The notes under the pieces were generated by a model that worked only from the letters and a program-made list of their open reading frames with translations, had not been told where the DNA came from and did no database searches. The translations under genes and the position numbers were made by a program. From Planctomycetaceae bacterium (GTDB lineage: Bacteria; Planctomycetota; Planctomycetia; Pirellulales; UBA1268), in contig WTHB01000084.1 in assembly GCA_011523305.1 (NCBI GenBank), positions 1 to 36,415 on the forward strand: DNA of 36,415 nucleotides. Direction: 5' to 3'. Positions 9,910-36,415 of this stretch are shown piece after piece (the stretch's first letter is position 1; every line of letters begins with the position of its first letter).

Positions 9910-11136
9910 TTATCGAGGCAGGCATTCAAGGCGTTGGCGGAGGGCAGCAACCTGCTTGACCTGCGCGGGCGTGAGCGGGACGCCGCGGGTCAGGCAATTA
10001 TCGGTCACGCAGTCTTCTCCTGCCTGCGCCTCCGGGACGAGGGCCTCGACAATGCGGTGAGTCAGCAGGTCAATGCCCGCTCCTGTCACCGCTGAGGTCA
10101 GGAGCCAGCCATCGGCGGCCGCAGACGCTGCATCATCTACCAGCAGATCGGCCTTGGTTCCGACAACAAGCTGGTTGGGCCGAGAGGCAGGCGGGGCTGC
10201 ACCGCTGGCAAGTAGGGCACTAGCCGGCTCCACCTGAAGCACCAGATCAGCTGACTCGAGGGCTGCGGCTGCCTTTCCGATGCCGGCCTGCTCGACCCGG
10301 TCGCCACCGCCCCCGGCGGGTTCGGGGTGCAGCCCAGCGGTATCGACCAGATCGACCTCCCAGCCATCCAGCAGCAGCCGGGTTTCCAGCAGGTCTCGGG
10401 TGGTTCCCGCCAGCGATGACACCAGGCTGCGGCTGGAGCCGGCCAGCGCGTTGACCAGGCTGCTCTTGCCAGCATTGACGGCTCCCGTGAGCACCACCCG
10501 CCAGGGCGTGGGTAGCCGCAGACCAACGCGGGCGGCACGTTCCAGCCGGGTGATGGTAGCGGTCGCCTCGGTGATCGCTACCGGCTGTCGCGACTCAAGC
10601 AGACGGGCCACCGCAGCAACATCTTGCTCGAAGGCTCCGGCCAACTGCCGGGCGAGAATCTGCGCCGCCCGCCAGCCACCCGCACGGGCGAGTCGGGCGG
10701 CTGCCGCTGAATCACCCACCTCGCCGGACAGAACAAGTGGCCATTCATTCCACGGCACTTCCGTGGCCCCGGCAGCCACAAGCCCATCCAGCACCGAACG
10801 CATGACGGCCCACCCGCCGTGGGTATGAATCTCCCAGCCCGAATGGGCCGCTCGCACCAGAACAACCGGCTCGCTGGCGGCTCGTCGGGCGGTGTCGAAG
10901 GCCGCAGCATCGCCGTCTTCAGCGAACTGATGCTGCCACACGCCAGCCATCAGGTCCCCAACGCCAAGTGTTTCCAGGCCTTTCCTCCCCCAGCCACGAA
11001 ACTGCTGGCCGAGCACCCGCTGGCTGTCATCCCCGGTCAGGCCGATGACTCCCAGCGCCCCGGCCCCGTCGGGCGTGAGGCGAGCCACGAGCGGATTGGA
11101 GCGTGAACTGTCTTTTTCTGGGGCCTTGTTTGACAT
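9910..11136 (-). CDS. Divergent, C-terminally short MnmE/TrmE-like tRNA modification GTPase
   Basis: Normal MnmE works with MnmG on uridine-34 of certain tRNAs, using GTP hydrolysis, a folate-binding N-domain and a C-terminal CIGK motif. Here the GTPase core is intact: GAVNAGKSS (218-226), GTTRD (244-248), DTAG (265-268), TKAD (327-330) and TSA (347-349). The N-terminal domain is recognisable (ALGVIGLTG, 27-35; HTHGGWAVMR, 104-113) but strongly diverged. The protein is 408 residues against about 450 for the family. It ends in ECLPR: the last helix with FCIGK is missing, although a Cys does sit four residues from the end. No mnmG is in the window. The gene converges on der with a 3-base gap and no good Shine-Dalgarno was seen. 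It may be a functionally altered paralogue rather than true MnmE. Confidence 0.8.
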   Translation of the reverse strand: MSNKAPEKDSSRSNPLVARLTPDGAGALGVIGLTGDDSQRVLGQQFRGWGRKGLETLGVGDLMAGVWQHQFAEDGDAAAFDTARRAASEPVVLVRAAHSGWEIHTHGGWAVMRSVLDGLVAAGATEVPWNEWPLVLSGEVGDSAAAARLARAGGWRAAQILARQLAGAFEQDVAAVARLLESRQPVAITEATATITRLERAARVGLRLPTPWRVVLTGAVNAGKSSLVNALAGSSRSLVSSLAGTTRDLLETRLLLDGWEVDLVDTAGLHPEPAGGGGDRVEQAGIGKAAAALESADLVLQVEPASALLASGAAPPASRPNQLVVGTKADLLVDDAASAAADGWLLTSAVTGAGIDLLTHRIVEALVPEAQAGEDCVTDNCLTRGVPLTPAQVKQVAALRQRLECLPR

Positions 11137-11158
11137 TTGGTATGTGCGGAAGTAGAAC
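11130..11158 (+). promoter_or_regulatory. Sigma70-type promoter for the tandem membrane-protein unit
   Basis: A perfect -35 box TTGACA (11130-11135), a 17-base spacer and a -10 box TAGAAC (11153-11158, four of six consensus bases) point rightward. The -35 box overlaps the start codon of the leftward MnmE-like gene. The predicted transcript would have a leader of roughly 190 bases before the ATG at 11359. Confidence 0.5.
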
Positions 11159-11189
11159 TCGGGCCAGACGGGGAGGAGAAGGCTTGTCG

Positions 11190-11247
11190 GCCCAGGGATT
11201 GGGCTGCGGAATGGATCGCTTAGAGTCTACTCCGGTTGTGGAACCGG
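11190..11247 (+). other. Hairpins in the long leader of the membrane-protein unit
   Basis: Two small stems lie in the predicted leader: GCCCA/TGGGC (11190-11194 with 11200-11204) and CCGGTT/AACCGG (11232-11237 with 11242-11247, four-base loop GTGG). No known riboswitch class was recognised. Nothing else was identified in the 222-bp gap 11137-11358 apart from the promoter and a C-rich tract (11326-11337) before the ribosome site. Confidence 0.35.
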
Positions 11248-11358
11248 GGCGGATTGAGAGCGATAGGTTCCAAACAAAATTGGGGCTTTGCTCGGCACCT
11301 TCCATGTTTTCTCTTCGTTTCATTTCCCTTCCCCCCACGACCAGACAAGGGCTAACCA

Positions 11359-12135
11359 ATGTCAGAAACCGGCACAGGATCTTCGATCGATCCGCAGGAA
11401 CTCTCACGGGCGATCGACCAGATCGAGAAACACCTCGACACGATCAACCGCACGCAGAAAACAGGGCGACTGGTTGTTCTCGGCGGTTCCATTTTGCTCA
11501 TCATCACCATGGCGTCGTTTGGACTGAGTCTGTTCAAGACCCTTCAGACCCAACTCAATGAACAGACCCTGCAGGCGGCCCTCACTGCCAAGGCCGAGGA
11601 ACTTTGGCCGCAACTCAGCGAGAAGCTCACCAAGGCAGCGATGTCAGCCGTTCCCGCCTACCGCGAAGAAGTGACAAAGCGGCTTGAAGTGTTGCAGCCA
11701 AAGCTACAGGCCATGGTCTCCAAAGAAGCCAGCGCCGTGGCTGACCGCCTGCCGGGCATGCTCCAAGAGAAAATTGCTGGCAGCCTCGACCGGGTCACCG
11801 AAAAGGTGGCAGCCGACGTCAAAAGCGAAGTCCCCAGCCTGACACCCGAAAAGGTTCAGCAGATGTCGGACATGCTGATTGAAGGCTTGGCACTGGAAGC
11901 CGACAAGTTGCAGGCGATGCTCAGCAAGGTCAGTGAAAAGGAAACGGCTCGGATCGAGAAGATCCTGCAGAAACTGCCGGTTGCTGAAGCAGCCAAGGAA
12001 TCAGAAGAGCGACTCCAGCAGCGGTTCATGCATCACATGCTGATGATCGTTGACCGAGCCGTCGCTCCGGATGAATCGTTCCTGCGGTCCGATGCAACGA
12101 TGATGCTCGACGCTGACGTCCCCCAACAGAATTGA
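11359..12135 (+). CDS. Single-pass membrane protein with long amphipathic helices (first of a tandem pair)
   Basis: No known family recognised. The 258 residues have three parts. A cytoplasm-type N-terminal helix (about 12-32, SRAIDQIEKHLDTIN) is followed by one hydrophobic membrane segment (about 37-59, GRLVVLGGSILLIITMASFG). Then come about 190 residues of charged amphipathic helix broken at intervals by prolines (WPQL, VPAY, LQPKL, RLPG, VPSL). The pattern of helices punctuated by proline resembles apolipoprotein-like lipid-surface proteins, but that is an analogy, not homology. An AAGGG ribosome site lies 7 bases before the ATG. The next gene encodes a product of the same size and layout, and the two share a promoter and a terminator, so they probably act together at the inner membrane facing the periplasm. 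Coiled-coil scaffold is an alternative role. Confidence 0.8.
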   Translation: MSETGTGSSIDPQELSRAIDQIEKHLDTINRTQKTGRLVVLGGSILLIITMASFGLSLFKTLQTQLNEQTLQAALTAKAEELWPQLSEKLTKAAMSAVPAYREEVTKRLEVLQPKLQAMVSKEASAVADRLPGMLQEKIAGSLDRVTEKVAADVKSEVPSLTPEKVQQMSDMLIEGLALEADKLQAMLSKVSEKETARIEKILQKLPVAEAAKESEERLQQRFMHHMLMIVDRAVAPDESFLRSDATMMLDADVPQQN

Positions 12136-12142
12136 TCCTGAC

Positions 12143-12190
12143 GGCGGCCGGCACGCCCAGCCGCCACATCGTCCTCAGGATGTCCTGAGG
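12143..12190 (+). other. Two adjacent hairpins between the tandem membrane-protein genes
   Basis: GGCGGC (12143-12148) pairs with GCCGCC (12160-12165), and CCTCAGGA (12173-12180) with TCCTGAGG (12183-12190). No T-run follows, so these are more likely mRNA-stability or processing elements than terminators. The downstream ribosome site is GGAG at 12220-12223. Confidence 0.5.
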
Positions 12191-12233
12191 GCTCACATTC
12201 ATTCCCTCCTTTCAAAATTGGAGTCTTAACACC

Positions 12234-13016
12234 ATGTCCTCAGCCCACGACTCAAACGCAGCAGCGGTCGAAACGCGTCTGCAAAACCTACAGAAACGGG
12301 TCGCTGACACCGCCTCACGTTCCAGCCAGCGACTGACGATCACCAGCCTGGTGATGGTGGCCCTGCTTGCCGGCGTGTTCCTCTACCTGCGATTTCTCTC
12401 CAAGACCATCACCGAATTCGCCGATGCTCCGACCCTGGTGCAGTTGGTGTCGGATCAGGTCGAACCCCGGCTCCAGGAAGCACCCGCGCAACTGGCCGAG
12501 TCGCTCAAGGCGCAGGCCCCGGCCGTGATTGGCCAGGCCGAAACCATGCTGCTCGAAGCAATTCCGCAGGTACTCGATGAAGCCGACGCGTTTCTGGTCA
12601 GTTTCTTTGAGACTGAATTCCAAGAAATTGAAGACGAGGCCTACAAGGTCATCCACGATGCCCTTGAAGACACAATCGCCCAGGCCAAAGAGAAGAACAT
12701 CGATCTGGCCAAAGAAGGGGAACTCGAAAAAGCTGTTGCTGGTGCTGCACCTGCCCTGCGGGAAATGGTCCAGACCCTTATTGAGGCCAACTTCAACAAG
12801 TTCTCGGAGGGCACAACTGAAGTTTCCGCCTATATCGACAACCTTGTGTCATCGGACAACCTCACTGACCATGAGCAGGCCCAGAAAGAGGTGCTGATCT
12901 CTGGGCTGGCCCTTCTCCGGAAGATGGAGGAAGATCGTTCACGGGCCCCGATCCAAGGGGTCTTGAATGGCACCATCCCCGCCGACTCGCCACTCCCGCC
13001 ACTCGACAGCAACTAA
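12234..13016 (+). CDS. Single-pass membrane protein with long amphipathic helices (second of a tandem pair)
   Basis: No known family recognised. The 260-residue product mirrors its upstream neighbour. It has an N-terminal helix (about 11-30, VETRLQNLQKRV), one membrane segment (about 34-52, TITSLVMVALLAGVFLYL), then a long proline-punctuated helical region (VEPRL, EAPAQL, QAPAVI, AIPQVL). That region becomes strongly acidic near residues 120-150 (FFETEFQEIEDEAYK). The two proteins differ enough that simple duplication must be old, if it occurred. GGAG sits 10 bases before the ATG. A strong intrinsic terminator follows 28 bases after the stop, so this gene ends the unit. The C-terminus is a short Pro/Ser tail. 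No enzymatic motif is visible; a structural or lipid-contacting role is inference. Confidence 0.8.
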   Translation: MSSAHDSNAAAVETRLQNLQKRVADTASRSSQRLTITSLVMVALLAGVFLYLRFLSKTITEFADAPTLVQLVSDQVEPRLQEAPAQLAESLKAQAPAVIGQAETMLLEAIPQVLDEADAFLVSFFETEFQEIEDEAYKVIHDALEDTIAQAKEKNIDLAKEGELEKAVAGAAPALREMVQTLIEANFNKFSEGTTEVSAYIDNLVSSDNLTDHEQAQKEVLISGLALLRKMEEDRSRAPIQGVLNGTIPADSPLPPLDSN

Positions 13017-13043
13017 AGCGGTAGCGGTATAATTGTGCCCATG

Positions 13044-13082
13044 ATCGTCCGCCGGCCTTACCAGGTCGGCGGACGATTTTTT
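13044..13082 (+). terminator. Strong intrinsic terminator
   Basis: An 11-bp perfect stem (ATCGTCCGCCG at 13044-13054 and its complement at 13067-13077) with a 12-base loop is followed by T6 (13077-13082). It ends the tandem membrane-protein unit. It is the clearest intrinsic terminator in the window. Confidence 0.9.
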
Positions 13083-13163
13083 ATGCTGGCATTCAGTGTT
13101 CGCTCGAAAAGTCAGGGCACACGCACCCGAATCCTCATCTCAAACCGCAAAAAGGCTTTCCCA

Positions 13164-24724: not shown

Positions 24725-25627
24725 CTAATTACCCGCGATAGCAACTTCCCCACCAGCTCTCGTAAACGTATTTCGGTAAACCGTCAGGTTAATTTCTTCA
24801 TTCAGAAAACGCACGCTTGCATCACACATGACCACCTGCAATCCGTTCGGGTGGTGACTACGGGCGAACCGATGCCGGTTACCGTTTACCAAAGCATTTG
24901 GCAAGTAAAGTCCGGTTGCGTAACCCGACGAGGCATGATTGACAAAAAAGAAGGAATTACTGCCGCGAGTATATGGATTTCCAGCTGCATCGAACCACGA
25001 ATGAGCATCTTCAAGCAACAGATACGTGTTCGAGGTGCCGTCGGTGATATCCTTAAACTTTGTTTTACTGTTTCGGTACATGACACCATTGGAAGAGGCG
25101 CTTCGTTCAGGGCAACAGCTAAATGCTCCTTGGGCGGCGGCTGAGTAATCTTTGTGATTTGCTGTTAGCTTGGGGGCAGAAGCACAACTGAACGTATTTG
25201 GCATTGAATCAGCAGCAGCTTTGTTCGCTGAATCACCCGCAGCGCCACCATGCCAAGAATTTATCCCACCAGTCGATGTGTACGATCGCTTGCTGAAATC
25301 AATTTGGTCATAAACGCCTTGCGCTTCGAGCTGCGGCAAAATGTATGCCGGCCAACCGAACTGGCCACAGTAATGGGTCCTATTTGCTGCATGACACGCA
25401 CCCGGAAACGAAGCCTCACCAACATTGCCCGATGGCAGCCTTTTGTTGGCATCGTAAAAGTTGTGAATCGCAGTCCCCAGCTGCTTCATGTTGTTGCCAC
25501 AGGACGACCGGCGGGCTGCCTCGCGAGCCTGCTGCACTGCTGGCAAAAGTAGCCCCACTAAGACGCCGATGATCGCGATCACCACCAGCAGTTCGATCAG
25601 CGTAAACGCACTTCTGTTCTTGTTCAT
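24725..25627 (-). CDS. DUF1559 protein with type IV prepilin-like N-terminus
   Basis: A 300-residue member of a family hugely expanded in Planctomycetes. ATG 25627 is chosen because GGAGG lies eight bases upstream and it places the prepilin signal right after the start: NKNRSAFTLIELLVVIAIIG, with the conserved Glu five residues after the cleavage point (here after Ala rather than Gly). Then LLLPAVQQAREAARRSSCGNNMKQLGTAIHNF opens the DUF1559 domain, with the terminal H-x9-DG type block (VVMCDASVRFLNEEI). The product is presumably processed by prepilin peptidase and assembled or exposed at the cell surface; function is unknown. It is co-transcribed with the following lipoprotein gene and has a recognisable promoter. 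It differs from the four-gene DUF1559 array at the right end of the window in its short middle section. Confidence 0.93.
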   Translation of the reverse strand: MNKNRSAFTLIELLVVIAIIGVLVGLLLPAVQQAREAARRSSCGNNMKQLGTAIHNFYDANKRLPSGNVGEASFPGACHAANRTHYCGQFGWPAYILPQLEAQGVYDQIDFSKRSYTSTGGINSWHGGAAGDSANKAAADSMPNTFSCASAPKLTANHKDYSAAAQGAFSCCPERSASSNGVMYRNSKTKFKDITDGTSNTYLLLEDAHSWFDAAGNPYTRGSNSFFFVNHASSGYATGLYLPNALVNGNRHRFARSHHPNGLQVVMCDASVRFLNEEINLTVYRNTFTRAGGEVAIAGN

Positions 25628-25686
25628 CAGATCACCCTCCAACCGAGAACGAATTTGGCTTCATGAATTGATCAAAGAGGCGGCCA

Positions 25687-25713
25687 CCGACATTCCGCTC
25701 AACAGAGCGTCGG
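25687..25713 (-). other. Leader hairpin upstream of the DUF1559 gene
   Basis: CGCTC (25696-25700) pairs with GAGCG (25705-25709) around the loop AACA, extended by CCGA (25687-25690) with TCGG (25710-25713) across an internal bulge. It lies within the predicted 5' leader of the leftward DUF1559 gene. The leader also begins near a C8/GGGG tract (25729-25743). Confidence 0.45.
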
Positions 25714-25747
25714 ACTGACACGAGCACGCCCCCCCCAATGGGGTAGC

Positions 25748-25776
25748 ACGATAGCCGATATTAAATCGACTGTCAA
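25748..25776 (-). promoter_or_regulatory. Sigma70-type promoter of the DUF1559-lipoprotein operon
   Basis: On the minus strand, TTGACA (25771-25776) is followed after exactly 17 bases by TATCGT (25748-25753). The -35 is perfect and the -10 matches four of six consensus bases. The local DNA is AT-rich compared with its surroundings. A leader of about 115 bases would precede the ATG at 25627. Confidence 0.65.
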
Positions 25777-25830
25777 GTTTTTCTCAGCTGAAACGCAGGC
25801 CCCTCACTGCCCCGCTTGTTTGCTGCTCGC

Positions 25831-27708
25831 TCAAACACCCGCCAACTCACGCAGGTCGCGTTCGAGGTCGTCGAGCCGCTGCGTCAGGTGAGCCTTTACA
25901 CTCGGCAGTTCCGTGCAGTTGCAGGGGGCAGCGGCCGTGAACAGATAGAATTTGATCTTCGGCTCAGTTCCTGACGGTCGGGCCGCCACCGCGTTGGCCA
26001 ACGGGGGAAAGCCGGCGTCGGGCGGCGGTTCGGCGGGCAGCGTGTCATCCGCCAGATCAAAGATCACCAGGTCGCCCTTTTCTCCGGCAAAGGCTGTCGG
26101 TGAGCCGCCTGCCTCCGTCACCAGCAACTGCCCATAGTCGCGCGTACGGGCAACCGGCAGCCCACCGAGTGTTGCTGGGGGCTGGGCTCGCAGGGTCGCC
26201 ATGATCTCCCGCATGCGGTCCATGCCCGCAGCGCCCGGTAGCGTGATCGCCACCTGTCGCTCCAGATGGCAGCCATGGGTGTAGAAGATGTCATCGAGTT
26301 TTTCATGAAGGGTCTTGCCCGTCGCCTTCAGGCTGACCGCCTGTTCCGACAGCAACAGCGCCGCCACGCTGGCGTCTTTGTCGCGAACATGGGTGCCCGC
26401 CAGATAGCCGTGTGACTCTTCACAGCCGAACACAAAGTGCTCGGGGCCGATGTCGTCGATCGTTCGCCCGATCCACTTAAAGCCCACCTGCAGGCTGTCG
26501 ATCACCCGCACCTGGTGGGCATTGCCAATGCGGCGAATCAGCCCACTGGTCACCAGCGTGGTCACCACTGTGTCGGTCGGCTGGCTGGTACTGTGTGCAG
26601 ACCGGCTCGACAGCACCCAGTCAGCCAGCAGCGCCCCGAGCTGATTGCCAGTGAACGTCTGCCATTCACTGCCCGCTACTGCCGTCAGGGCCGCGGCAGC
26701 CCCCAGCCGATCGCAGTCGGGGTCACTGGCCAGCACGAGGTCGTCGCCCTGCGCTTTTGCCTCGGCAATCGCCCCCGACATGACGGCGGGGTTCTCGGGG
26801 TTGGACACGTGCCCCGGCACATTGGGAAAGTCGCCGCTCGGCTCTGCCTGCGGGCCGTAGAGCCGCACCTGCTCAAACCCAGCCCCCGCCAACACCGGCA
26901 TGACCGCCGTGGCCCCCACGCCGTGCAGCGGCGTGTAGAGCACTGAAAGATCTCGCGAGCCGGCCGAAGCCTGCTTCAGCACGGCCTGAATGAAGGCGGG
27001 ATCAATCTCCTCTTCCACAAACACCACCCGGCCGGCCGCCACCGCGTTGTCGAATGCTTCCCGGCGGATCTCATCGGCCTGCATCACCCGCTCGATAATG
27101 CCCTTGTCATGCGGGGGCAGCACCTGCACACCACCGGCCCAATAGACCTTCACCGCATTGTCACTGGGTGGGTTGTGGCTGGCTGTCACCATGATGCCGC
27201 AGGTGCTGTTGGTGTGTCGCACCGCAAAGGAGAGTTCCGGCGTGCTGCGATACCCCCGCAGGAAGAACACCTTGAAGCCAGCGGCCAGCAGCACCTCGGT
27301 GCAGAGGCGGGCAAAGTGCTCGGAGTGGTGCCGGGTGTCGTAGGCGATCGTGCAGGTTGGGGTACTGCCGGCGGGCAGGCTGGCAGTGACATAGTCGGCC
27401 AGACCTTGGGCGCTCTCCCCGATGGTGCGGTCGTTGATGGCGTTGGAGCCGACCGGATACATCCGCCCCCGGCGGCCCCCCGTTCCAAAGGGAATGACGG
27501 TCCAGTAGGCATCGTCGAGTTCCTTCCAGACAGCCGGTTCACCAGCAGCCCGATCGATGAGCCGGCCCAGTTCCTCAGCAAACTCGGCATACCGAGGTTC
27601 CGACAGCCAGGCCTGCATGGTTGTGGCTGAGTGATCGGTGATGGTGCCGGCGTCCCGGGCAGCAGTGAGGGCGGCAAGGCGGCTGGCAGTGGACGGCGAG
27701 GACGACAT
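25831..27708 (-). CDS. Phosphoglucomutase/phosphomannomutase family enzyme (PGM2-like)
   Basis: An alpha-D-phosphohexomutase of 625 residues that moves a phosphate between C1 and C6 of a sugar, probably glucose; phosphopentomutase activity is possible in this subfamily. All four family motifs are present: the phosphoserine loop TASHNP with Ser177, the metal site SDPDCDR, the sugar-specificity loop GCEESHGY, and the phosphate-binding RPSGTEPKIKFY. The N-terminal WKELDDAYWTVIPFGTGGRRGRMYPVGSNAIN is typical of the long PGM2-like type. The ribosome site GGAG sits inside an inverted-repeat arm shared with the divergent glmM-like gene. No signal peptide is present. The two genes may be co-regulated, channelling hexose phosphates toward glycogen or cell-surface sugars versus amino sugars. 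Confidence 0.92.
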   Translation of the reverse strand: MSSSPSTASRLAALTAARDAGTITDHSATTMQAWLSEPRYAEFAEELGRLIDRAAGEPAVWKELDDAYWTVIPFGTGGRRGRMYPVGSNAINDRTIGESAQGLADYVTASLPAGSTPTCTIAYDTRHHSEHFARLCTEVLLAAGFKVFFLRGYRSTPELSFAVRHTNSTCGIMVTASHNPPSDNAVKVYWAGGVQVLPPHDKGIIERVMQADEIRREAFDNAVAAGRVVFVEEEIDPAFIQAVLKQASAGSRDLSVLYTPLHGVGATAVMPVLAGAGFEQVRLYGPQAEPSGDFPNVPGHVSNPENPAVMSGAIAEAKAQGDDLVLASDPDCDRLGAAAALTAVAGSEWQTFTGNQLGALLADWVLSSRSAHSTSQPTDTVVTTLVTSGLIRRIGNAHQVRVIDSLQVGFKWIGRTIDDIGPEHFVFGCEESHGYLAGTHVRDKDASVAALLLSEQAVSLKATGKTLHEKLDDIFYTHGCHLERQVAITLPGAAGMDRMREIMATLRAQPPATLGGLPVARTRDYGQLLVTEAGGSPTAFAGEKGDLVIFDLADDTLPAEPPPDAGFPPLANAVAARPSGTEPKIKFYLFTAAAPCNCTELPSVKAHLTQRLDDLERDLRELAGV

Positions 27709-27712
27709 GCAG

Positions 27713-27770
27713 GGTCTCCGGAAAACGCGGGTGGGCAGGGAAATTCACTCGGTTTTATACTCCGGAGACC
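27713..27770. promoter_or_regulatory. Bidirectional promoter region flanked by a 10-bp inverted repeat
   Basis: GGTCTCCGGA (27713-27722) and TCCGGAGACC (27761-27770) are perfect inverted copies 38 bases apart. They bracket the AT-rich TTTTATACT (27753-27761), which can supply a -10 box on both strands (TATACT rightward, TATAAA leftward). No good -35 box is seen either way. The left arm also contains the GGAG ribosome site of the leftward mutase. It could be a regulator-binding site or duplicated leader sequence. Confidence 0.5.
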
Positions 27771-27803
27771 AACACTGTGCCGACAGCAGGGAGGCTGTTT
27801 TTG

Positions 27804-29213
27804 ATGACGACCGCCAATGCACCGACCTCACCCACACCAGCACCAACAGAACCGCTGATTGTTAGCGTCTCGGGCCTGCGGGGCGTGGTTGGGGCAACCC
27901 TCAACGGCGATGTGGCGGCGGCCTATGCCCTCGCCTTTGCCGAGACACTTCCCCCCGGGCCGATTGTGCTCGGGCGGGACGGCCGCGAATCGGGCCCCGT
28001 CCTCAAGCAGGCGATCGCTGCAGCCCTGCTGGCGGCCGGGCGGGACGTGCTCGATTGCGACGTGGCCTCCACGCCCACGATCGGCATTGTGGTGGCAACA
28101 GAGGGAGCGGCCGGCGGCATCCAGATTTCTGCCAGCCACAACCCTGCCCGCTACAACGGCCTCAAGCTGTTTTCTACGGAAGGCCGCGTGCTGCCGGTCG
28201 CAGCTGGTGAGGCGGTCAAGCGACGCTTCGAGTCCCTCCGTCGCACGCCCCCTGCCGCTGCGGCACCAGCCACCCCGGGACAGCTTCGCCCTTTGGATGG
28301 CGTGGCCCCGCACCTTGAGCGGGTGCTGCAGATCGTTGATGCCGACGCCATTCGCCGAGTGAAACCTCGGGTCTGGCTCGACTGCGGCCATGGGGCGGGC
28401 AGTCGGCTGGCCCAGCCACTACTGGAAGCCCTTGGCTGTGAACTAACCCTGGTGGGCCTGCCGGCCGACGGCCAGTTTGAGCACGAGCCTGAACCGACGG
28501 CAGCCAACCTTGCCGACTGGCTGCCGCAGATCGCTGCGGCGGGCGCCGACATTGGGTTTTTTCAAGACCCCGACGCCGACCGGCTGGCGATTGCCACCGG
28601 TGACGGCCGCTACCTGGGCGAAGAGCTGACGCTGGCCCTGGCGGTTGATGCCGTGCTGACCAAGACGCCGGGGCCCGTCGTGACAAACTGTTCGACCAGC
28701 GGCCTGTCTGCTCGGCTTGCCGAGCGGCATGGCGTGGCCTGCAGTCTGTCTGCGGTGGGGGAAGCAAACGTCGTTGACGAGATGCTGCGTCGGCAGGCGG
28801 TGCTCGGCGGCGAGGGCAACGGCGGGGTGATCGACCCCCGGGTCGGTCTCGTGCGGGACTCATTTGTGGCGATGGCCCTGGTGCTGGAGCGGATGGCAAC
28901 CGGCGAAAGCCTGACACCGGTGGACACCTTGGTCGAGGCGTTCCCCCAGTTGGCGATCACCAAGCAGAAGGTCACGCTCCCCGCTGGCTGGACTTCAGCC
29001 GATGTGCAGGCAGCATTCGACCGGGTCGCTGCGGCGTTTCCTGAGGCCACCAGCAGCCGCTTGGATGGCATTCGCATCGACTGGCCCGAGGGCTGGCTGT
29101 TGGTGCGGGCGAGCAACACCGAGCCGATTGTGCGAATCGTCGCCGAAGCCACCGATCAGGCTCAGGCCGACGCCGCCGTCGAGCAGGCCCAGGCCGCGTT
29201 GCTGGAGGCGTAA
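27804..29213 (+). CDS. glmM: Phosphoglucosamine mutase-like alpha-D-phosphohexomutase
   Basis: Probably interconverts glucosamine-6-phosphate and glucosamine-1-phosphate on the route to UDP-N-acetylglucosamine; phosphomannomutase activity cannot be excluded. It has 469 residues with ATG 27804, supported by GGGAGG nine bases upstream; a GTG at 27777 is a weaker alternative with GGAG at similar spacing. Motifs are ISASHNP with Ser111, QDPDADR (254-260), GGEGNGG (335-341) and RASNTEPIVRIVAEA near the end. The GGEGNGG specificity loop resembles that of archaeal-type GlmM rather than the GGEQSGH loop of Escherichia coli GlmM, so the symbol is tentative. It diverges from another phosphohexomutase and converges on a metallophosphoesterase-like gene with four bases between stops. 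Confidence 0.85.
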   Translation: MTTANAPTSPTPAPTEPLIVSVSGLRGVVGATLNGDVAAAYALAFAETLPPGPIVLGRDGRESGPVLKQAIAAALLAAGRDVLDCDVASTPTIGIVVATEGAAGGIQISASHNPARYNGLKLFSTEGRVLPVAAGEAVKRRFESLRRTPPAAAAPATPGQLRPLDGVAPHLERVLQIVDADAIRRVKPRVWLDCGHGAGSRLAQPLLEALGCELTLVGLPADGQFEHEPEPTAANLADWLPQIAAAGADIGFFQDPDADRLAIATGDGRYLGEELTLALAVDAVLTKTPGPVVTNCSTSGLSARLAERHGVACSLSAVGEANVVDEMLRRQAVLGGEGNGGVIDPRVGLVRDSFVAMALVLERMATGESLTPVDTLVEAFPQLAITKQKVTLPAGWTSADVQAAFDRVAAAFPEATSSRLDGIRIDWPEGWLLVRASNTEPIVRIVAEATDQAQADAAVEQAQAALLEA

Positions 29214-29217
29214 GAGC

Positions 29218-30516
29218 CTACGCCGCCTCGCCCGTTCGCTGGAGTGGCTGCTGCCACGCGGCCATGGCTTCATCGGGCTGCCAGGCAACCGCTGGGCTGT
29301 GGTGACTGAGGTCGAGCGGCTCGACCCGGCCCGCGTCACCCATCACCGCCAGGCCCCGCGGACTGGCGGGCCGCAGTGCCGGCACCGCCGGCTGAACGAG
29401 TTTGACATCGACGGTCTCGCCGCTCACCAGGCCGACTTCGCTCGTTACAGCGAGTGGTCGGCCTAGGCAGCGGCTGACAACAGCTTCACCCCACGCGGCA
29501 GCCTGCACCGCCTCAGTAGGATGCCCCAGCAGCAGGCCCGCTGGATCGGTGACATCATCCGGGCCAGATGATCTGTCAGCCGTTCCGCAGAGATCAGCGA
29601 GGAGGGCCTCGGCGTGTCCCTCGTCACTCGGGGCCTCCAACGCACCTGCAAACCGGCCCACAAAATCAAACTGGCAGGGCACCTGCACCTGGCTGCAGAC
29701 CGCCTCGCGGTGCCAGGCCTTCACCGCCTTTTTCCACTGCGTGGCCAAGCGCGTCGCCCAATCCTGACTGCCACCGGCTGCCTGCGGCAAGAATCGCTGC
29801 CAAAACAGGTCAGGGACTTCCAGCGGATGACTCTCCGCCAGCAGTCGGAGGCCGTCTGCTGTGACGCCGGCGACCCGGGCGGCCCCATCAAGGACTGCCG
29901 CAGCGAAGCGGGCCAGCAGGCCAACCGTGAGCAACTGCGAAAAGCTGGGGGTGTCTGCCTGGTCGCGTTGGCTGTGGTGCAAGGGCCCGAACCGCTGACC
30001 GTGCTCAATCTGCCAGCCGTATCCCTGCCACTGTTCGGCCCAGTGCACTTGCTGCCATTCCGGCGTCGCCGCCTCCAGAAACCCGTCGCGATCACCCGCC
30101 AGCAGCGTGATGCTGACCGGCACCTTGACCGGCTGTCGCAGGTAGGGCCGGCCCTGGGCCGTCGCGGCGGGCACCACCAGGCCATCGGCCAGCAGCTGCC
30201 GGGCCTGCCGCAGCAAGGGGGCAGCCCGTCGCAGGGCGGCTGCCGCAACCTGACGGCGAATGGTGGCCACGCGGGTGGAACGGTTCCACGGTCGCAGGTC
30301 ATCAGTAACCCACTGCTGGCTACTGAGCAGGTCGCAGGTGTCCCCGGCGAAGACGATATCGAGCCGGTCGATCGGCGCGTAGTGCCCGTCGTGGCGAAAG
30401 CCGGCCCGCAGGGCGGCCCGCTGCACCGCACCCCAGGTGCGGGCGACCAACCCTCGCAGTGGCCGTCGCCACAGGGAGCCGTCTGTGATATTCCAATTCG
30501 CGGTGACCACCAGCAT
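29218..30516 (-). CDS. Metallophosphoesterase-like protein with altered active-site motifs
   Basis: About 432 residues from ATG 30516, preferred because GGAG lies eight to nine bases upstream; the frame extends to a GTG at 30624 without a ribosome site. The pattern resembles calcineurin-type phosphoesterases: an N-terminal strand VVTANWNITDG where the family has a D-x-H motif, RLDIVFAGDTCDLL with GDxxD at 58-62, TLLAGDRDGFLE (138-147) where GNHD/E is expected, and IEHGQRFGPLHH (170-181) where the late HGH motif is expected. The first motif lacks the usual His and the third has GDRD rather than GNHD, so metal binding may be changed or lost. The rest is Ala/Gln/Trp-rich and unrecognised. It is cytoplasmic. 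It abuts the glmM-like gene tail to tail. The assignment is by motif order only; an unrelated protein remains possible. Confidence 0.6.
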   Translation of the reverse strand: MLVVTANWNITDGSLWRRPLRGLVARTWGAVQRAALRAGFRHDGHYAPIDRLDIVFAGDTCDLLSSQQWVTDDLRPWNRSTRVATIRRQVAAAALRRAAPLLRQARQLLADGLVVPAATAQGRPYLRQPVKVPVSITLLAGDRDGFLEAATPEWQQVHWAEQWQGYGWQIEHGQRFGPLHHSQRDQADTPSFSQLLTVGLLARFAAAVLDGAARVAGVTADGLRLLAESHPLEVPDLFWQRFLPQAAGGSQDWATRLATQWKKAVKAWHREAVCSQVQVPCQFDFVGRFAGALEAPSDEGHAEALLADLCGTADRSSGPDDVTDPAGLLLGHPTEAVQAAAWGEAVVSRCLGRPLAVTSEVGLVSGETVDVKLVQPAVPALRPASPRGLAVMGDAGRVEPLDLSHHSPAVAWQPDEAMAAWQQPLQRTGEAA

Positions 30517-30660
30517 GCCGGCTTCTCCAGCGTGACCCACCGTGGGTCGCTCTGGGAAAGTTCGGCAAAGAAAACCGGCTGCCGTGAGCAGGCCACAGAG
30601 CAGGTGAGCCTGTGGCGGTCGCACCGGCTGTGCCGTGGGACCATCACGCCGCTGCCAACG

Positions 30661-32055
30661 CTAGTCAATGACCGGCAGGCTGCCGTTGGCTCGGCCGGCG
30701 AGGGCACGGTGCACGGCGGGGTCGATATCAAAACCAAAGGTTTCGATTCGGCCGTCCCCGAAGGCCATATTGAAGCCACGAGCGTGGGCACTGCCGTAGG
30801 AATTGTTGTGAAACTCCCCGGCCGTGTCTGGCTTCGGTGGTTCACTCCCCCAGCGAATATTGCTGCTGGAATAGCCTGAATAGAGCACGCCGGCGTCACC
30901 TGGGTCTTGGCCCGTCTCATAGTGATCGGCTGCAACATACTTTTCCCCAAGCAGGTAGACGTTCCCCATACCGTCGAGCACCTTGGCCGAGGCGATTCGG
31001 CCCATCCGGGTGATCACTCCATCCTGAAGATCGGGAATGCCCGAGTCGGCCAGCTCGAGCCGCTCCATCGTCGTGCTGGAATACCAGAGGTCACCGTCAG
31101 CGACCGTGCTTGGTGTATAAATACTGCTATCGATGGGGTTTGTGCAGGAGGGCTTGTTGGGGCAACCACCTACCCTGTCGAGATCATGATGCAGGTGCCC
31201 CGCGTGGCCATGGTTACTCGTGAACGCATTCCACGAAATAACAATCTCGGTGCATTTATCAGGATCGTTACCGGGCATGTGACCAATCAGGACTTTCTGT
31301 TGGCTATCGACGTGTCCATACTTCCGTACGACTTTGGGTGAGAAGCAGACGCCATACGAACCACCGTTCGCGGCATAGTCGGTGCGGGTCGCTTCCGACA
31401 ACGACACCTGCAGGTTGACCGCCGTCCGGAAGTAGGTGTTCCCACCGCCACTTCCACCACCATTTCCGCCACCATTTCCGCCACCTGAATTCAGGCCTGC
31501 GAACATAACGTTCGTGCCACTTGAGGTTTCCACCACACTACCACTTGTGCTGCTCTGCAGTGACGTCATGTCGATCGGCAACGGGTTGACATGCCGGCGA
31601 GACGGACAGTTGAACATCGGCACATTCGCGACCGCAAGTGCCTGATAGGCAGACTCGGCCGTCGCCGAGGTCACACCCTCAACTGAGCCATGGAGCCCTA
31701 ACTCCTCAATGTACGGCAGGATGTTATATGTCCAGCCGCCTGGCTGCCGGCCATCGGCGGTACGTTCTGCCACGCCCAGCCAGAGTGGGCTCCAACCACC
31801 TGTGAGGATGTAACCGGTTTTCGATTCATGCTGCAGAATCCCCAGACTCATTTGCCGGAGGTGGTTCTTGCACGAACTGTTGCGGGACGCCTCGCGAATT
31901 GCCTGGACTGCCGGCAATGCAATAGCCATCAACACCGAAATGATGGCGATGCCGACGATCAGTTCGATGAGCGAAAACGCCTTCCGGACCGTGCCACGCT
32001 GACGGTGGGTGCTTGCTGAAGTCGAAACGGGATAGCGTGTGAAGCGGGTCATCAT
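30661..32055 (-). CDS. DUF1559 protein, array member 4 (Gly-rich linker)
   Basis: About 464 residues if started at ATG 32055, which has AAGG about nine bases upstream; the next codon is also ATG. The frame stays open upstream to 32208 without a convincing start. The prepilin-like segment is KAFSLIELIVGIAIISVLMA, preceded by an unusually long polar leader of some 25 residues (RYPVSTSASTHRQRG). DUF1559 follows, with GGWSPLWLG, QPGGWTYNILPYIEE and NVYLLGEKYVAADHYETG blocks that recur in the next two array members. A low-complexity Gly/Asn linker of about 15 residues is encoded by 12-bp tandem repeats (31457-31486). It is presumably a surface pseudopilin-like protein of unknown role and the most downstream gene of the array. 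Confidence 0.88.
   Translation of the reverse strand: MMTRFTRYPVSTSASTHRQRGTVRKAFSLIELIVGIAIISVLMAIALPAVQAIREASRNSSCKNHLRQMSLGILQHESKTGYILTGGWSPLWLGVAERTADGRQPGGWTYNILPYIEELGLHGSVEGVTSATAESAYQALAVANVPMFNCPSRRHVNPLPIDMTSLQSSTSGSVVETSSGTNVMFAGLNSGGGNGGGNGGGSGGGNTYFRTAVNLQVSLSEATRTDYAANGGSYGVCFSPKVVRKYGHVDSQQKVLIGHMPGNDPDKCTEIVISWNAFTSNHGHAGHLHHDLDRVGGCPNKPSCTNPIDSSIYTPSTVADGDLWYSSTTMERLELADSGIPDLQDGVITRMGRIASAKVLDGMGNVYLLGEKYVAADHYETGQDPGDAGVLYSGYSSSNIRWGSEPPKPDTAGEFHNNSYGSAHARGFNMAFGDGRIETFGFDIDPAVHRALAGRANGSLPVID
31457..31486. repeat. 12-bp tandem repeats encoding a Gly-rich linker
   Basis: Two exact copies of CCACCATTTCCG (31457-31468, 31469-31480) are followed by a partial third, with degenerate copies just before (31442-31456). 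The unit is a multiple of three, so copy-number change would lengthen or shorten the Gly/Asn linker of the DUF1559 protein without a frameshift. Confidence 0.7.
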
Positions 32056-32341
32056 TCCACCAGCCTTTCTGCAGTCGGGCGCCTTTGCCTCCACCCGTCC
32101 TTTCAAACTGGGCAAACCGCGCGCCAATGGCATCCGTTGCCTCAAATTGATTCCGAACGTGATTTTTCGGGCACAAGTTGAGGGCCCTGATTTCTGCCGC
32201 TGCGGCAAAATGCCTCATGCAGGGCAATTTGCGACGGCAACGGGTTCGGGGAGCCCAGGAATTGTGCCGCGAACGTTTCGCCCTCCAGTGCATTATTTGC
32301 GTTGCCCGAAGGTCAGTACAGTTTCATGGGCAGTTTTGACC

Positions 32342-32398
32342 TGTCTGGGGAGACACGCCGACAGGACACCTGGGGACAGTTCCACGCATTGACCCCTG
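32342..32398. repeat. Palindromic intergenic sequence with GGGGACAG motif
   Basis: TGTCT/AGACA (32342-32346 with 32351-32355, loop GGGG) makes a small hairpin, and CTGTC (32341-32345) can alternatively pair with GACAG (32360-32364). It is followed by TGGGGACAGTTCC and, 12 bases further, GACCCCTGTGG. From memory, GGGGACAGT-type sequences often border REP-associated transposase elements. No transposase is present here, so this may be a decayed remnant. Confidence 0.35.
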
Positions 32399-32425
32399 TG
32401 GCATTGCGGCACCATCTGCCCACGC

Positions 32426-32506
32426 AAGCCCGAACCGTGAGCCAGGGTAGGGTGCGACGTTTGCACCTCAGCCAATCCGCATTCCCTCACCCTGCGGTTC
32501 GGGCTT
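32426..32506. repeat. Nested inverted repeat / possible structured RNA or REP-like element
   Basis: AAGCCCGAACCG (32426-32437) and CGGTTCGGGCTT (32495-32506) form a perfect 12-bp outer stem. Inside, AGGGT (32444-32448) pairs with ACCCT (32489-32493), and GGTGC (32451-32455) with GCACC (32463-32467). TTTT (32505-32508) follows on the plus strand. The gene on the left strand ends at 32542, so the element lies directly downstream of a DUF1559 gene and could protect or end its mRNA. It resembles paired extragenic palindromes. No function is established. Confidence 0.6.
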
Positions 32507-32541
32507 TTGTGACGACATTGCCAGATCGTCACTTCTCGGCA

Positions 32542-33789
32542 CTAGAAATTACCGAGCACTTCGCCTTCGAAACGGGGTGTCTTTGCGGCAAGGTTCTTAT
32601 GAACCTCTGGGTCAATGTCGTAACTCATTGACCGGACAGAGCCGTCTCCAAAGGCCGCGTTCCAGACTTCGGCATGAGCGCTGCCGAATGCATTCAACCA
32701 CTCCTCGCCGTCTGCATCCGATTGTGGCGGTTCACTCGCCCAACGAACGTTACTCGCCGAGTAGCCGGCATAGAGGATCGAATTATCTCCCCGATCAACG
32801 CCTCCGTCATACCCATCCGCTCGAACATACTTTTCAGCGATGAGGTAGACATTGGAAAGGCCGTCGAGAACAGCTCCGGCCTGCACCTTTCCCATGCGGT
32901 CAACCATTCCGTCTTGCAGATCGGGAACTCCCGACTCACCCAACTGACTGATGCGCTGACTTTTTCGCCACCGTCTTTTTTCATCACCATCATCAAGATC
33001 TGTGGGGGCGTACAGGATTGCATCCATGAACTCGGTACACGGCCCACTCGTGTCACAGCGTCCAATCGTGTCATGTGGGTGATTCGCATGACCGCTCAAT
33101 GCGGACACAGGAACCAGGATTTCGTTGCAGTTACTTGGGTTGCCCGGCGGCCTGTGCGCAAGCCGCACTTTGCCACTACCGCCAGTGCCGACCAAGGCGA
33201 TAAACTTCTTGATTGGCATTTCAATACAGGCGCCCATCGACCCGCCGCTGGCAGCGTAATCGCAGCGAGTGGCCTGGGTGATTGTGACCGTCGCATCATT
33301 GCCTCCAAACGATGTTCGGAAGCGCACTCCGGACTCTTCATTATCAACACCAGCAAGGGCCTCGCCACCACGCCGCGACGGGCAACCAAACGAAGCGACA
33401 GGTGCTTCGCATAATTGCTCATACGCCGTCTGAGCATCCGCTGCAGAAAGCACGCCGTCCTGCAAGACTACCTCTTCGATATATGGCAAGACGGTGAACG
33501 TCCACCCACCTGGCTGGCTTGAGTCGCTCGCTCGATCCGGAGTTCCCAGCCAATTTTCACTCCACCCGCCCGTGGGAAAGTAGCGGTGCTGCGACTCGTG
33601 CTGAATCATGCCCTTGGCCAACTGAGCCAGGTGGTTTCTGCAGGACGTGCGGCGGGCACCCTCCCGGGCTGATTGCAGTGCAGACAGCAGCATGCTGAAC
33701 ATCACGCTGACCACTCCGATGACCACAATCATCTCAAGCAGCGTAAAACCGCTGCGGCGCGGCTGTTGTAGCGTCTTCCATCGACTCAT
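32542..33789 (-). CDS. DUF1559 protein, array member 3
   Basis: About 415 residues from ATG 33789, supported by GGAG eight to nine bases upstream; the frame is open much further (to 34152) but that part overlaps the neighbouring gene. The prepilin-like segment is RRSGFTLLEMIVVIGVVSVM, with the usual Gly before Phe and Glu at +5 but an atypical LLEMIVV core. DUF1559 follows (LQSAREGARRTSCRNHLAQLAKGMIQHESQ). It shares with the two flanking array members the blocks GGWSENWLG, SQPGGWTFTVLPYIEE, NVYLIAEKYVRADGYDGG, SNVRWASEPP and AFGDGSVRSMSYDIDPEVHKNLA, so the three are clear paralogues. It is presumably exported and surface-exposed. An upstream element contains TTGACA and a small inverted repeat. 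Confidence 0.9.
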   Translation of the reverse strand: MSRWKTLQQPRRSGFTLLEMIVVIGVVSVMFSMLLSALQSAREGARRTSCRNHLAQLAKGMIQHESQHRYFPTGGWSENWLGTPDRASDSSQPGGWTFTVLPYIEEVVLQDGVLSAADAQTAYEQLCEAPVASFGCPSRRGGEALAGVDNEESGVRFRTSFGGNDATVTITQATRCDYAASGGSMGACIEMPIKKFIALVGTGGSGKVRLAHRPPGNPSNCNEILVPVSALSGHANHPHDTIGRCDTSGPCTEFMDAILYAPTDLDDGDEKRRWRKSQRISQLGESGVPDLQDGMVDRMGKVQAGAVLDGLSNVYLIAEKYVRADGYDGGVDRGDNSILYAGYSASNVRWASEPPQSDADGEEWLNAFGSAHAEVWNAAFGDGSVRSMSYDIDPEVHKNLAAKTPRFEGEVLGNF

Positions 33790-33845
33790 CCATGCGTCTC
33801 CATAGGTCGCCGGAGGGGCCCCTGCCTCACCAACCCTTTCAATCC

Positions 33846-33876
33846 TAGCCGATCGTTTTGTCAAGCAAAACGCAGG
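33846..33876 (-). promoter_or_regulatory. Upstream element of a DUF1559 gene (TTGACA within an inverted repeat)
   Basis: On the minus strand CTTGACA (33859-33865) lies inside the inverted repeat CGTTTTG/CAAAACG (33854-33860 with 33866-33872). It is flanked by CCTGCGTTT (33868-33876) and ATCGGCTA (33846-33853). The same three blocks occur in the same order upstream of the DUF1559 gene at 24725-25627. A matching -10 box at normal spacing is weak here, so a regulatory site or an unusual promoter is possible. Confidence 0.4.
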
Positions 33877-33961
33877 CGTATCGAGCGTCCACAAAAAACC
33901 AGTGGGCCGCGAGAAAAGGCGTATCCCGATACAAAACGGGCCCGCGGGACACTGTTGACTG

Positions 33962-35125
33962 TCAGAACGCCTCAAGCACTTCGCCGGCATATCGTGGTGC
34001 CCGTACAGCAAGATTCTTATGCGTCTCGAGGTCGATCTCCAACGAAATGGACCTGACCGATCCGTCTCCGAGGGCAACATTAAACACCCCAGGGTGGGAC
34101 GACCCAAAGATATTTGGGTGATCTTCGTCGGTGTCTTGCAGAGGTTCCTCACTGGCCCAGCGGATGCTGCTACTGGAGAACCCGACCATCATCGGCTGGG
34201 TGTCGCCTGGGTCCGTGCCTGTCTCATATTTTGTTTCGTTGATGTACTTCTCGCCAACCAGATAGACGTTGGAGAGTCCATCTAGGACGTTGCCTGCAGT
34301 CACCTGGCTCATGCGACAACCCATGCCGTTCCCGAGAGAGGGCACACCGTAATCGGTAGCGAAGGTTGTGCCTGCCACCGCTTGGTATGCCTGACTCGCC
34401 CATGTTGCGCCCTGATTCATCGTTGTCGGAGACTGCGCTACCGCATCGACCCCGGTGTCTTCCGCGCCGCAAGGCCCAAGAGTGGCGCCGTTGTACGCAC
34501 CCCCACGAACCAGAGCACTTACTGCAACTGTTGACCCGCCTCCTCCGACACAGATTGGGACGCTGCTGGAATGGAGTGCCGCTGGCAATGCCGCGGCGTA
34601 GTCGTTTCCATCACCGCCCCAGGTAATTGAACCGCCGTTGAGGCAATAGTCTGTCCGAGCCGCTGAGGAAATCGTTACGTTGCTTGGCGTTTTGAAAGAC
34701 GTCGTTGAAACCGGCTTAGGTGTCGGCGGCCGCCTAGTTGGGCACGTAAAGATTAAACCTGTTTCTTCGCACAGAGCCACATAGTCTGCGACGCTGGCCG
34801 TCGAGGGCACGGAGTTGTACAGGTTTTTCTGTTCGGTGAACGGAAGAATTGCGTAAATCCATCCACCAGGCTGAGACTTGCCGACTGGACCAGCTGAGCC
34901 AAGCCAATCCTTCCCCCAGCCACCTGAAGGAAACTTTCGATGCTGGCTTTCATACTGGATGATGCCCTTCGCAATTTGTCCAAGTTGGCTCGAACAGTAG
35001 GTTCGCCGCGATGATTCACGAGCCGTTTGGACGGCCGGAATCGACAATGCAGCAACGATGCCAATGATGGCAATCACGACAAGAAGTTCGATCAGGGTGA
35101 AACCACCAAGACTAGGCTTTGGCAT
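33962..35125 (-). CDS. DUF1559 protein, array member 2
   Basis: 387 residues. ATG 35125 puts the prepilin signal at the very N-terminus (MPKPSLGGFTLIELLVVIAI), a canonical form with Gly before Phe and Glu at +5. DUF1559 continues with IPAVQTARESSRRTYCSSQLGQIAKGIIQYESQ, then GGWGKDWLG, SQPGGWIYAILPFTE, NVYLVGEKYINETKYETG, SIRWASEEP and VALGDGSVRSISLEIDLETHKNLA. The C-terminus (PRYAGEVLEAF) closely matches that of array member 3 (PRFEGEVLGNF), supporting tandem duplication. It lies 41 bases after array member 1 and is probably co-transcribed with it. The downstream gap to array member 3 is 172 bases and holds GC-rich palindromes (around 33940-33955) but no clean intrinsic terminator. Confidence 0.92.
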   Translation of the reverse strand: MPKPSLGGFTLIELLVVIAIIGIVAALSIPAVQTARESSRRTYCSSQLGQIAKGIIQYESQHRKFPSGGWGKDWLGSAGPVGKSQPGGWIYAILPFTEQKNLYNSVPSTASVADYVALCEETGLIFTCPTRRPPTPKPVSTTSFKTPSNVTISSAARTDYCLNGGSITWGGDGNDYAAALPAALHSSSVPICVGGGGSTVAVSALVRGGAYNGATLGPCGAEDTGVDAVAQSPTTMNQGATWASQAYQAVAGTTFATDYGVPSLGNGMGCRMSQVTAGNVLDGLSNVYLVGEKYINETKYETGTDPGDTQPMMVGFSSSSIRWASEEPLQDTDEDHPNIFGSSHPGVFNVALGDGSVRSISLEIDLETHKNLAVRAPRYAGEVLEAF

Positions 35126-35166
35126 CGGTGAAGCCCCTTGTCGTGCCGTTTACAAAATCAAGATTC

Positions 35167-36114
35167 TTAATTGAGATCAGATTCATTAAGGAGCCCCGGC
35201 GCCCAAACAGCCCCGACTGAATCTTTTGAAGAGTCTGATGTTACGATCTGCGCGTAAACACTTGCAGCAATATTTTCAGAGAGAAACCGCGTATGCCCGT
35301 CGCAGAAAACGACCTGGGCTCCGCCGTAGTGACCAGATGATGGGTAGAGTGTAAAAGCGGTTGTGTTGTTGATAATGTTGCCAGCTGGCACAGTCGCTCC
35401 GAGCCCGAAAATTGGAGCCGTCGAATAATCATCAAGCAGACGCCCACTCGCCTGAATGCTTGTCACGGGCATCGTGTCATTCCAACTGGCTAGGCTTGTC
35501 ACCGCAGGCCCGCCCCGCTCCGCAATCAAAAGCGTGGTTGGGGTTCCATCAGCCGACGAGATAGCATCAAGACTGAGTGTCCGCGGCTGAACACCCACAG
35601 CACCGACCGCATCAAACATGACACCGTCGCCTGACCACTGTGAACTGCCGCTACAGGCCGTGGTTCCGCCATTGCCTGCATAGGCTAGTTCTGAGCCACC
35701 CTGAGCTGCGGGTGCAGAAGGGCAGCGATAGAACGGCAACTCAACCGACGGTGGTACAAGGGAGTCTGGAATACCATTGCCGCTGCCATCGGCAGTTTTG
35801 CATGCCTCGTAGACATCTTTTCGCTCCATCATCGGAAGGATCGCGATGGCCCATGATCCCTTCGTAATGGCGCTGTCATTCTTAGGGAGATCGATCCGCC
35901 AGCCCGGCAAACCGTTTTTCTTGCCTTCGAAGTTGATGATGCCGTACCCAATCTGTTTCAGGTTATTTTCACAGGCATTCCGACGGCCAGCCTCTCGGGC
36001 ACTCTGCACCGCTGGCAAAAGTAGCCCCATGAGGATGCCGATCACTGCGATGACAACAAGCAGCTCAACAAGGGTGAAGCCTGCGGGCTGTGAATGGGAT
36101 GGTTTTCGTGGCAT
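35167..36114 (-). CDS. DUF1559 protein, array member 1
   Basis: 315 residues from ATG 36114, chosen for the GAGGTGATC ribosome site just upstream and because it places the prepilin segment (PAGFTLVELLVVIAVIGILM) near the N-terminus. DUF1559 follows as PAVQSAREAGRRNACENNLKQIGYGIINFEG, with the terminal block AQVVFCDGHTRFLSENI of the H-x9-DG type. It is shorter than the other three array members and lacks their GGW and NVYLxGEKY blocks. It belongs to the more common DUF1559 subtype, closer to the protein at 24725-25627. It is the first gene of the leftward array after the partial gene at the window edge. The upstream 193-bp gap (36115-36307) has T-rich plus-strand tracts but no clear promoter or terminator. 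Confidence 0.93.
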   Translation of the reverse strand: MPRKPSHSQPAGFTLVELLVVIAVIGILMGLLLPAVQSAREAGRRNACENNLKQIGYGIINFEGKKNGLPGWRIDLPKNDSAITKGSWAIAILPMMERKDVYEACKTADGSGNGIPDSLVPPSVELPFYRCPSAPAAQGGSELAYAGNGGTTACSGSSQWSGDGVMFDAVGAVGVQPRTLSLDAISSADGTPTTLLIAERGGPAVTSLASWNDTMPVTSIQASGRLLDDYSTAPIFGLGATVPAGNIINNTTAFTLYPSSGHYGGAQVVFCDGHTRFLSENIAASVYAQIVTSDSSKDSVGAVWAPGLLNESDLN

Positions 36115-36307
36115 CTGATCACCTCGCTTGATTGAGGATTCCTGGTTGTGGTGAATGGCCCCCACCTGCCCCGTCACTGCCTGTTGCCCCAACGCTTGGT
36201 GAATCATAACGGCAATTCCGGTGGCTGTGTGCGGCCCTGTTGTTTCTTTTTGGTTTGCTTTGATTGGAGCGGCTGTTTTTTTGTCGGCTGGTTTGCTGGT
36301 CTCTGCC

Positions 36308-36415
36308 CTAATGCGGCACAAATGTCTGTCGCACCGTCACCTGCCGCACCTGCCGGCTGGACGGCTCATAGACGCGGATGCGGACCTCAATGCCCCGAAG
36401 CGGGTACGGGTAGGG
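36308..36415 (-). CDS. C-terminal 35 codons of a gene cut by the window edge, possibly pseudopilin-like
   Basis: Reading leftward from the window edge, one frame is open for 35 codons to a TAG at 36308-36310. It includes RGIEVRIRVYEPSSRQVRQ and ends TFVPH. The pattern of a strand followed by 'RVYEPSSRQVRQVTV' near the C-terminus resembles, from memory, the ends of planctomycete GspJ/type II secretion-like pseudopilins. The gap to the next start (193 bases) makes co-transcription with the DUF1559 array possible. The family call is tentative. Confidence 0.55.
   Translation of the reverse strand, partial: PYPYPLRGIEVRIRVYEPSSRQVRQVTVRQTFVPH

Follow-up and report, generated by a model that had tools for sequence, protein, structure and literature searches.

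The A/B locus

The window (the whole stretch of DNA analyzed, 36,415 nucleotides from contig WTHB01000084.1 of a Planctomycetaceae bacterium) contains two complete plus-strand ORFs, here called A and B, with a gap of 98 bases between them (Table 1). The product of A is predicted to have a cytoplasmic N-terminal helix, then one membrane segment, then a helical domain of ~190 residues with 15-residue repeats. B is laid out in the same way, and a hydropathy scan found no second hydrophobic segment of similar strength in either protein. Outside the membrane segment both are helical with periodic prolines in single-protein AlphaFold models, which are poor (pLDDT 58 and 47, built before the deeper alignments) and were used only for their all-helical character. 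Substitutions relative to congener homologues concentrate at third codon positions (first/second/third: 0.27/0.13/0.61 for A and 0.29/0.18/0.65 for B), so both can be taken as real genes under protein-level selection. A first-pass annotation of this DNA had described two neighboring genes of these sizes with a shared layout and a single membrane segment at nearly equal positions, and the ORFs, hydropathy and low-confidence models bear this out.

Table 1. Features of the A/B unit, in order along the window.
Feature	Position	Strand	Details and basis
Promoter-like block, TTGACA-17-TAGAAC	11130..11158	+	Aligned in five congeners; fails consensus scan
Gene A	11359..12135	+	258 aa; ORF, homologues, codon-position test, periodicity
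Transmembrane segment of A	11470..11526	+	Residues 38-56; family-averaged hydropathy 2.06 over 19 residues, N-in charge bias
Nine 15-residue repeat units of A	11563..11967	+	Residues 69-203; P84, P99, P114, P159 in one phase
Likely ribosome-binding site of gene B, GGAG	12220..12223	+	Sequence
Gene B	12234..13016	+	260 aa; layout as A; ORF, homologues, A-B profile comparison, two-clade tree
Transmembrane segment of B	12339..12395	+	Residues 36-54; hydropathy, positive-inside bias
Mixed 15-/11-/19-residue helical repeats of B	12429..12833	+	Residues 66-200; P66, P96, P111 in phase
Intrinsic terminator ending the A/B unit	13043..13083	+	16-pair stem, 4-base loop, T run

The terminator after B is, as had been claimed, the strongest in the window (16 pairs and a T run, compared with nine pairs for the next best), and strong hairpins are also found downstream of B in several relatives. 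The claim that the pair has its own TTGACA promoter fared less well. The TTGACA itself is present (11130–11135) and the block (TTGACA-17-TAgAAc) can be aligned in five congeners, the window included, but the TAGAAC is a poor −10, the block falls below the pass mark in a consensus scan, and it is missing in a sixth congener (G007). The −35 also falls across the initiation codon of a divergent mnmE-like gene. A promoter ahead of A is therefore plausible but unproven. Two strong hairpins lie in the A-B gap (12142–12192; predicted fold −36 kcal/mol for 104 bases); they were considered as a conserved element and rejected, being strong in the window but missing in congeners. No known RNA elements were found within the window.

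Elsewhere in the window, five minus-strand ORFs within 24725–36321 (at 24725, 30661, 32542, 33962, and 35167) resemble prepilins at the N-terminus (FTLIELLVVIAIIG or a near variant), and several of them look like tandem paralogues. Two phosphohexomutase-like genes are arranged head to head, at 25831–27708 (minus strand) and 27777–29213 (plus strand).

Distribution, adjacency, and paralogy

An initial search for relatives reached no further than certain genera of the window's own family, and a scan of named genomes with close profiles gave 13 planctomycete MAG loci. Profiles were widened stepwise from the family to other families of the order, the class, and the phylum. At phylum level B was matched in 30 of 393 genomes and A in 35, several of these matches being short, weak, and in long ORFs; carriage is estimated at ~7% of sampled Planctomycetota genomes, in a patchy pattern. 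Such a distribution speaks against A/B being essential to the planctomycete cell plan: with so few of the sampled genomes carrying the pair, A/B would not be its general basis.

Where the genes occur, they occur together. Among 57 further loci, each from a distinct genome, 56 have exactly one A and one B, adjacent and on the same strand with A upstream; with the window this makes 57 of 58 planctomycete genomes, and the order is never reversed. Twenty phylum-level loci in this count played no part in building the profiles, and the count leaves out weak single matches (for example G712, G724, G798, and G283). At L200–L203 the search detected only one gene, yet both are present in the fetched neighborhoods, while L078 and L216, in each of which a frameshift splits one gene that can still be recognized, were counted as paired. 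The sole exception is G100 (L085), with a B and no detectable A, so that the expectation of a pair always adjacent across Planctomycetes holds at every locus but this one, the single case among the 58 of one gene without the other. The lone B (L085:5474-6184) adjoins a CstA-like carbon-starvation gene. No conserved neighbor of A/B was found in a survey of flanking ORF sequences, which change between lineages. Since adjacency is retained while the neighbors vary, the pair appears to be kept as a unit of its own, in agreement with its first description as self-contained.

Some individual loci show further variation. In G002 an A gene with a frameshift and an in-frame TAA (L078:7305-8176) stands beside an intact B, and in G003 a different contig carries a second A, which is disrupted (L016:1401-2092); decay and assembly error are indistinguishable in both cases. 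In some lineages B ends in a long Pro/Lys/Glu repeat (ETKPV..., EKPADKPEEKK...; L083:2-1006, L086:5890-7152), a kind of tail that recalls periplasm-crossing linkers.

The two families are ancient paralogues. Their profiles align with an hhalign E-value of 1.5e-15 across 209 columns, and in a phylogenetic tree the 52 A sequences and the 53 B sequences form two clean clades (local support 0.96), so that one duplication must be older than the family's spread. Distances in the tree of A correlate with those in the tree of B (r = 0.925; shuffled maximum 0.12); this shows that the two are inherited jointly, although most of it would be expected from the species history that they share. A and B have kept company from a time before the split of the sampled planctomycete classes, or have traveled together since.

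Family searches

Neither A nor B, nor any of the distant relatives scanned, scored over the cut-off of a Pfam or NCBIfam model, and a literature search found no work on the family, consistent with the initial statement that no known family could be recognized. A/B therefore seem to be an undescribed two-gene family, missing from both databases. The best sub-threshold Pfam match of A is DUF445 (PF04286; E = 4.8e-4, 20.6 bits against a cut-off of 33.8), but membership was rejected because none of 39 genomes searched gave a match over the curated cut-off and the layout also differs. Also set aside were the gas-vesicle protein GvpQ, which one member matched far under cut-off (E = 8e-4), and a phage or defense origin, for which there are weak matches only, including an Rz-like spanin (E = 0.009).

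Helical periodicity

The distribution of hydrophobic residues after the membrane segment is strongly periodic in both families. The mean power spectrum of 51 A sequences peaks at 94.75 degrees per residue (power 8.3, shuffled maximum 1.6) and that of 52 B sequences at 94.25 degrees (power 7.1, shuffled maximum 1.8), with the same peaks on a second hydrophobicity scale; a class-level subset of B peaks at 97 degrees. These values correspond to a hydrophobic period of 3.80–3.82 residues. Two controls behaved differently: ATP synthase subunit b from the same genomes peaks at 98.5 degrees, as hendecads should, and a heptad-like region of a neighboring gene at 103.5 degrees. The period agrees with the 15/4 hydrophobic pattern of right-handed 15-residue coiled coils, although at a spectral resolution of about 2 degrees 15/4 and 19/5 are inseparable. 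Repeat lengths give a similar picture. The best length for A is 15 (2.11; null at most 1.13), while for B lengths of 15, 11, and 19 do equally well (1.56). Autocorrelation peaks at lag 15, and 15 is also the commonest Pro-Pro spacing in both families.

Apolipoprotein-type helices have an 11/3 period (about 3.67), an 11/22-residue repeat and a proline every 22 residues, and heptad coils have a 7/2 period. The first-pass description of the helices as apolipoprotein-like does not hold on this comparison, in either period or proline spacing, and power at 11/3 in A is low (2.1, compared with 8.3 at the peak). Hendecad and quindecad repeats are associated with right-handed coiling, quindecads being found in subunit G of the Thermus stalk (PMC6131620), and VASP is a right-handed coil on a 15-residue repeat according to a title cited in PMC8203680. 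By analogy with VASP and the rotary-ATPase stalk subunit G, the 15-residue pattern probably marks right-handed coiled coils here also.

Possible arrangement of A and B

Positive charges flanking the membrane segment are more numerous on its N-terminal than on its C-terminal side (3.4 vs. 2.0 in A, 4.0 vs. 1.4 in B); the bias is N-in for 37 of the 52 A proteins and for 45 of the 53 B proteins. By the positive-inside rule, the C-terminal helical domain would then be in the periplasm. Because the paralogues stay together and share an unusual pitch, the simplest reading is a hetero-oligomeric right-handed stalk, and there is perhaps an even chance that A and B form an inner-membrane-anchored hetero-oligomer of this kind, projecting a right-handed coiled coil into the periplasm as a structural tether or spacer. 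The hetero-oligomer, its rod shape, its place in the periplasm, and its role as a tether are all predicted here. A and B would be two halves of one envelope component, each with a short helix in the cytoplasm, one span, and a helical domain of roughly 190 residues outside the cytoplasm. The two domains, matched in their long hydrophobic period, would intertwine in a heterodimer or a higher-order hetero-oligomer, and the resulting stalk would project from the inner membrane much as the paralogous b/b' stalk of ATP synthase does, but pointing outward.

Several observations sit less easily with such a stalk. A continuous rod could be broken or kinked by prolines that recur every 15 residues; B is able to stand alone, as G100 retains it in the absence of A; and with no conserved neighbor, nothing points to a partner or pathway. 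The periodicity cannot discriminate between homo- and hetero-oligomers, or between parallel and antiparallel arrangements.

If the prolines instead mark helix ends, as they could, each protein might fold alone into a compact helical bundle, such as a module for sensing or ligand binding, and the two together would be a receptor without a long stalk. The fairly constant length of the domain past the membrane segment (about 188–199 residues) would suit this. The 3.8-residue periodicity, however, holds its phase over about 175 residues, which is unexpected for helices joined by loops, and no signaling domain is attached; such bundles are considered unlikely, though they fare better than the other alternatives below.

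A role at lipid surfaces, in which the amphipathic domains would lie flat against a membrane or lipid body like those of apolipoproteins or phasins, is improbable. The domains are indeed helical, charged, and proline-punctuated, and there are weak PDB profile matches to ApoE (E = 0.0055) and ApoA-I (E = 0.04) and a match of one B member to Phasin_2 (E = 6e-4). The PDB matches are mixed with unrelated helical proteins, including saposins, syntaxins, and designed bundles, and no apolipoprotein Pfam model is among the families listed for A, B, and the members scanned. More directly, a period of 3.80–3.82 residues would wind the hydrophobic stripe round the helix and leave no straight face, and the low 11/3 power and the proline spacing count against this role as well. 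Of the original proposal of a hetero-oligomeric, membrane-anchored periplasmic scaffold or lipid-surface protein, the scaffold is still the best idea and fits the N-in bias, while the lipid-surface analogy does not.

Returning to the stalk, a broader and more tentative proposal, which is if anything somewhat doubtful, is that A/B represent an undescribed class of Planctomycetota envelope component: a two-gene, membrane-anchored, hetero-oligomeric rod with a 15-residue right-handed repeat whose boundary is marked by prolines, reaching across part of the periplasm and retained as a unit over the phylum's history. Helical stalks that are long, membrane-anchored, and defined in length would be candidates for organizing the planctomycete envelope, many of whose structural parts are still unknown, and the 15-residue signature gives a sharp and testable structural prediction.

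Comparison with known systems

The VASP tetramerization domain is short, soluble, and eukaryotic, and no sequence match between it and A/B was found. Its likeness to the A/B pattern is in the right-handed 15-residue coil named in the title cited in PMC8203680. The E/G peripheral stalk of A/V-type ATPases is a heterodimer mixing hendecads and quindecads (PMC6131620), like the mix in B, but unlike A/B its subunits have no membrane span, and no significant sequence match to A/B was found. Apolipoproteins A-I and E resemble A/B in their proline-punctuated charged helices and in weak profile similarity; they differ in having 11/22-residue repeats and no membrane anchor. DUF445 (YjiN) differs from A in that each of its ends has a hydrophobic stretch and in its lack of a 15-residue autocorrelation.

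That A and B are true relatives of the F-type b/b' subunits, serving as peripheral-stalk-like parts of a rotary ATPase or related membrane machine, is highly improbable even though subunit b is the top PDB match of the B profile (E = 0.008, not significant): ATP-synt_B (PF00430) is not among the families listed for 61 members scanned, the genome's own PF00430 gene is on another contig (C74), the pair lies outside the atp operon and not beside atp genes in the neighbor survey (judged from ORF sequences), the charge bias predicts a helical domain on the opposite side of the membrane, and the repeat is of 15 rather than 11 residues (94–95 vs. 98.5 degrees). What A/B and b/b' have in common is a matter of design: two paralogous adjacent genes, one N-terminal span in each product, and a long right-handed helical pair, predicted in the case of A/B.
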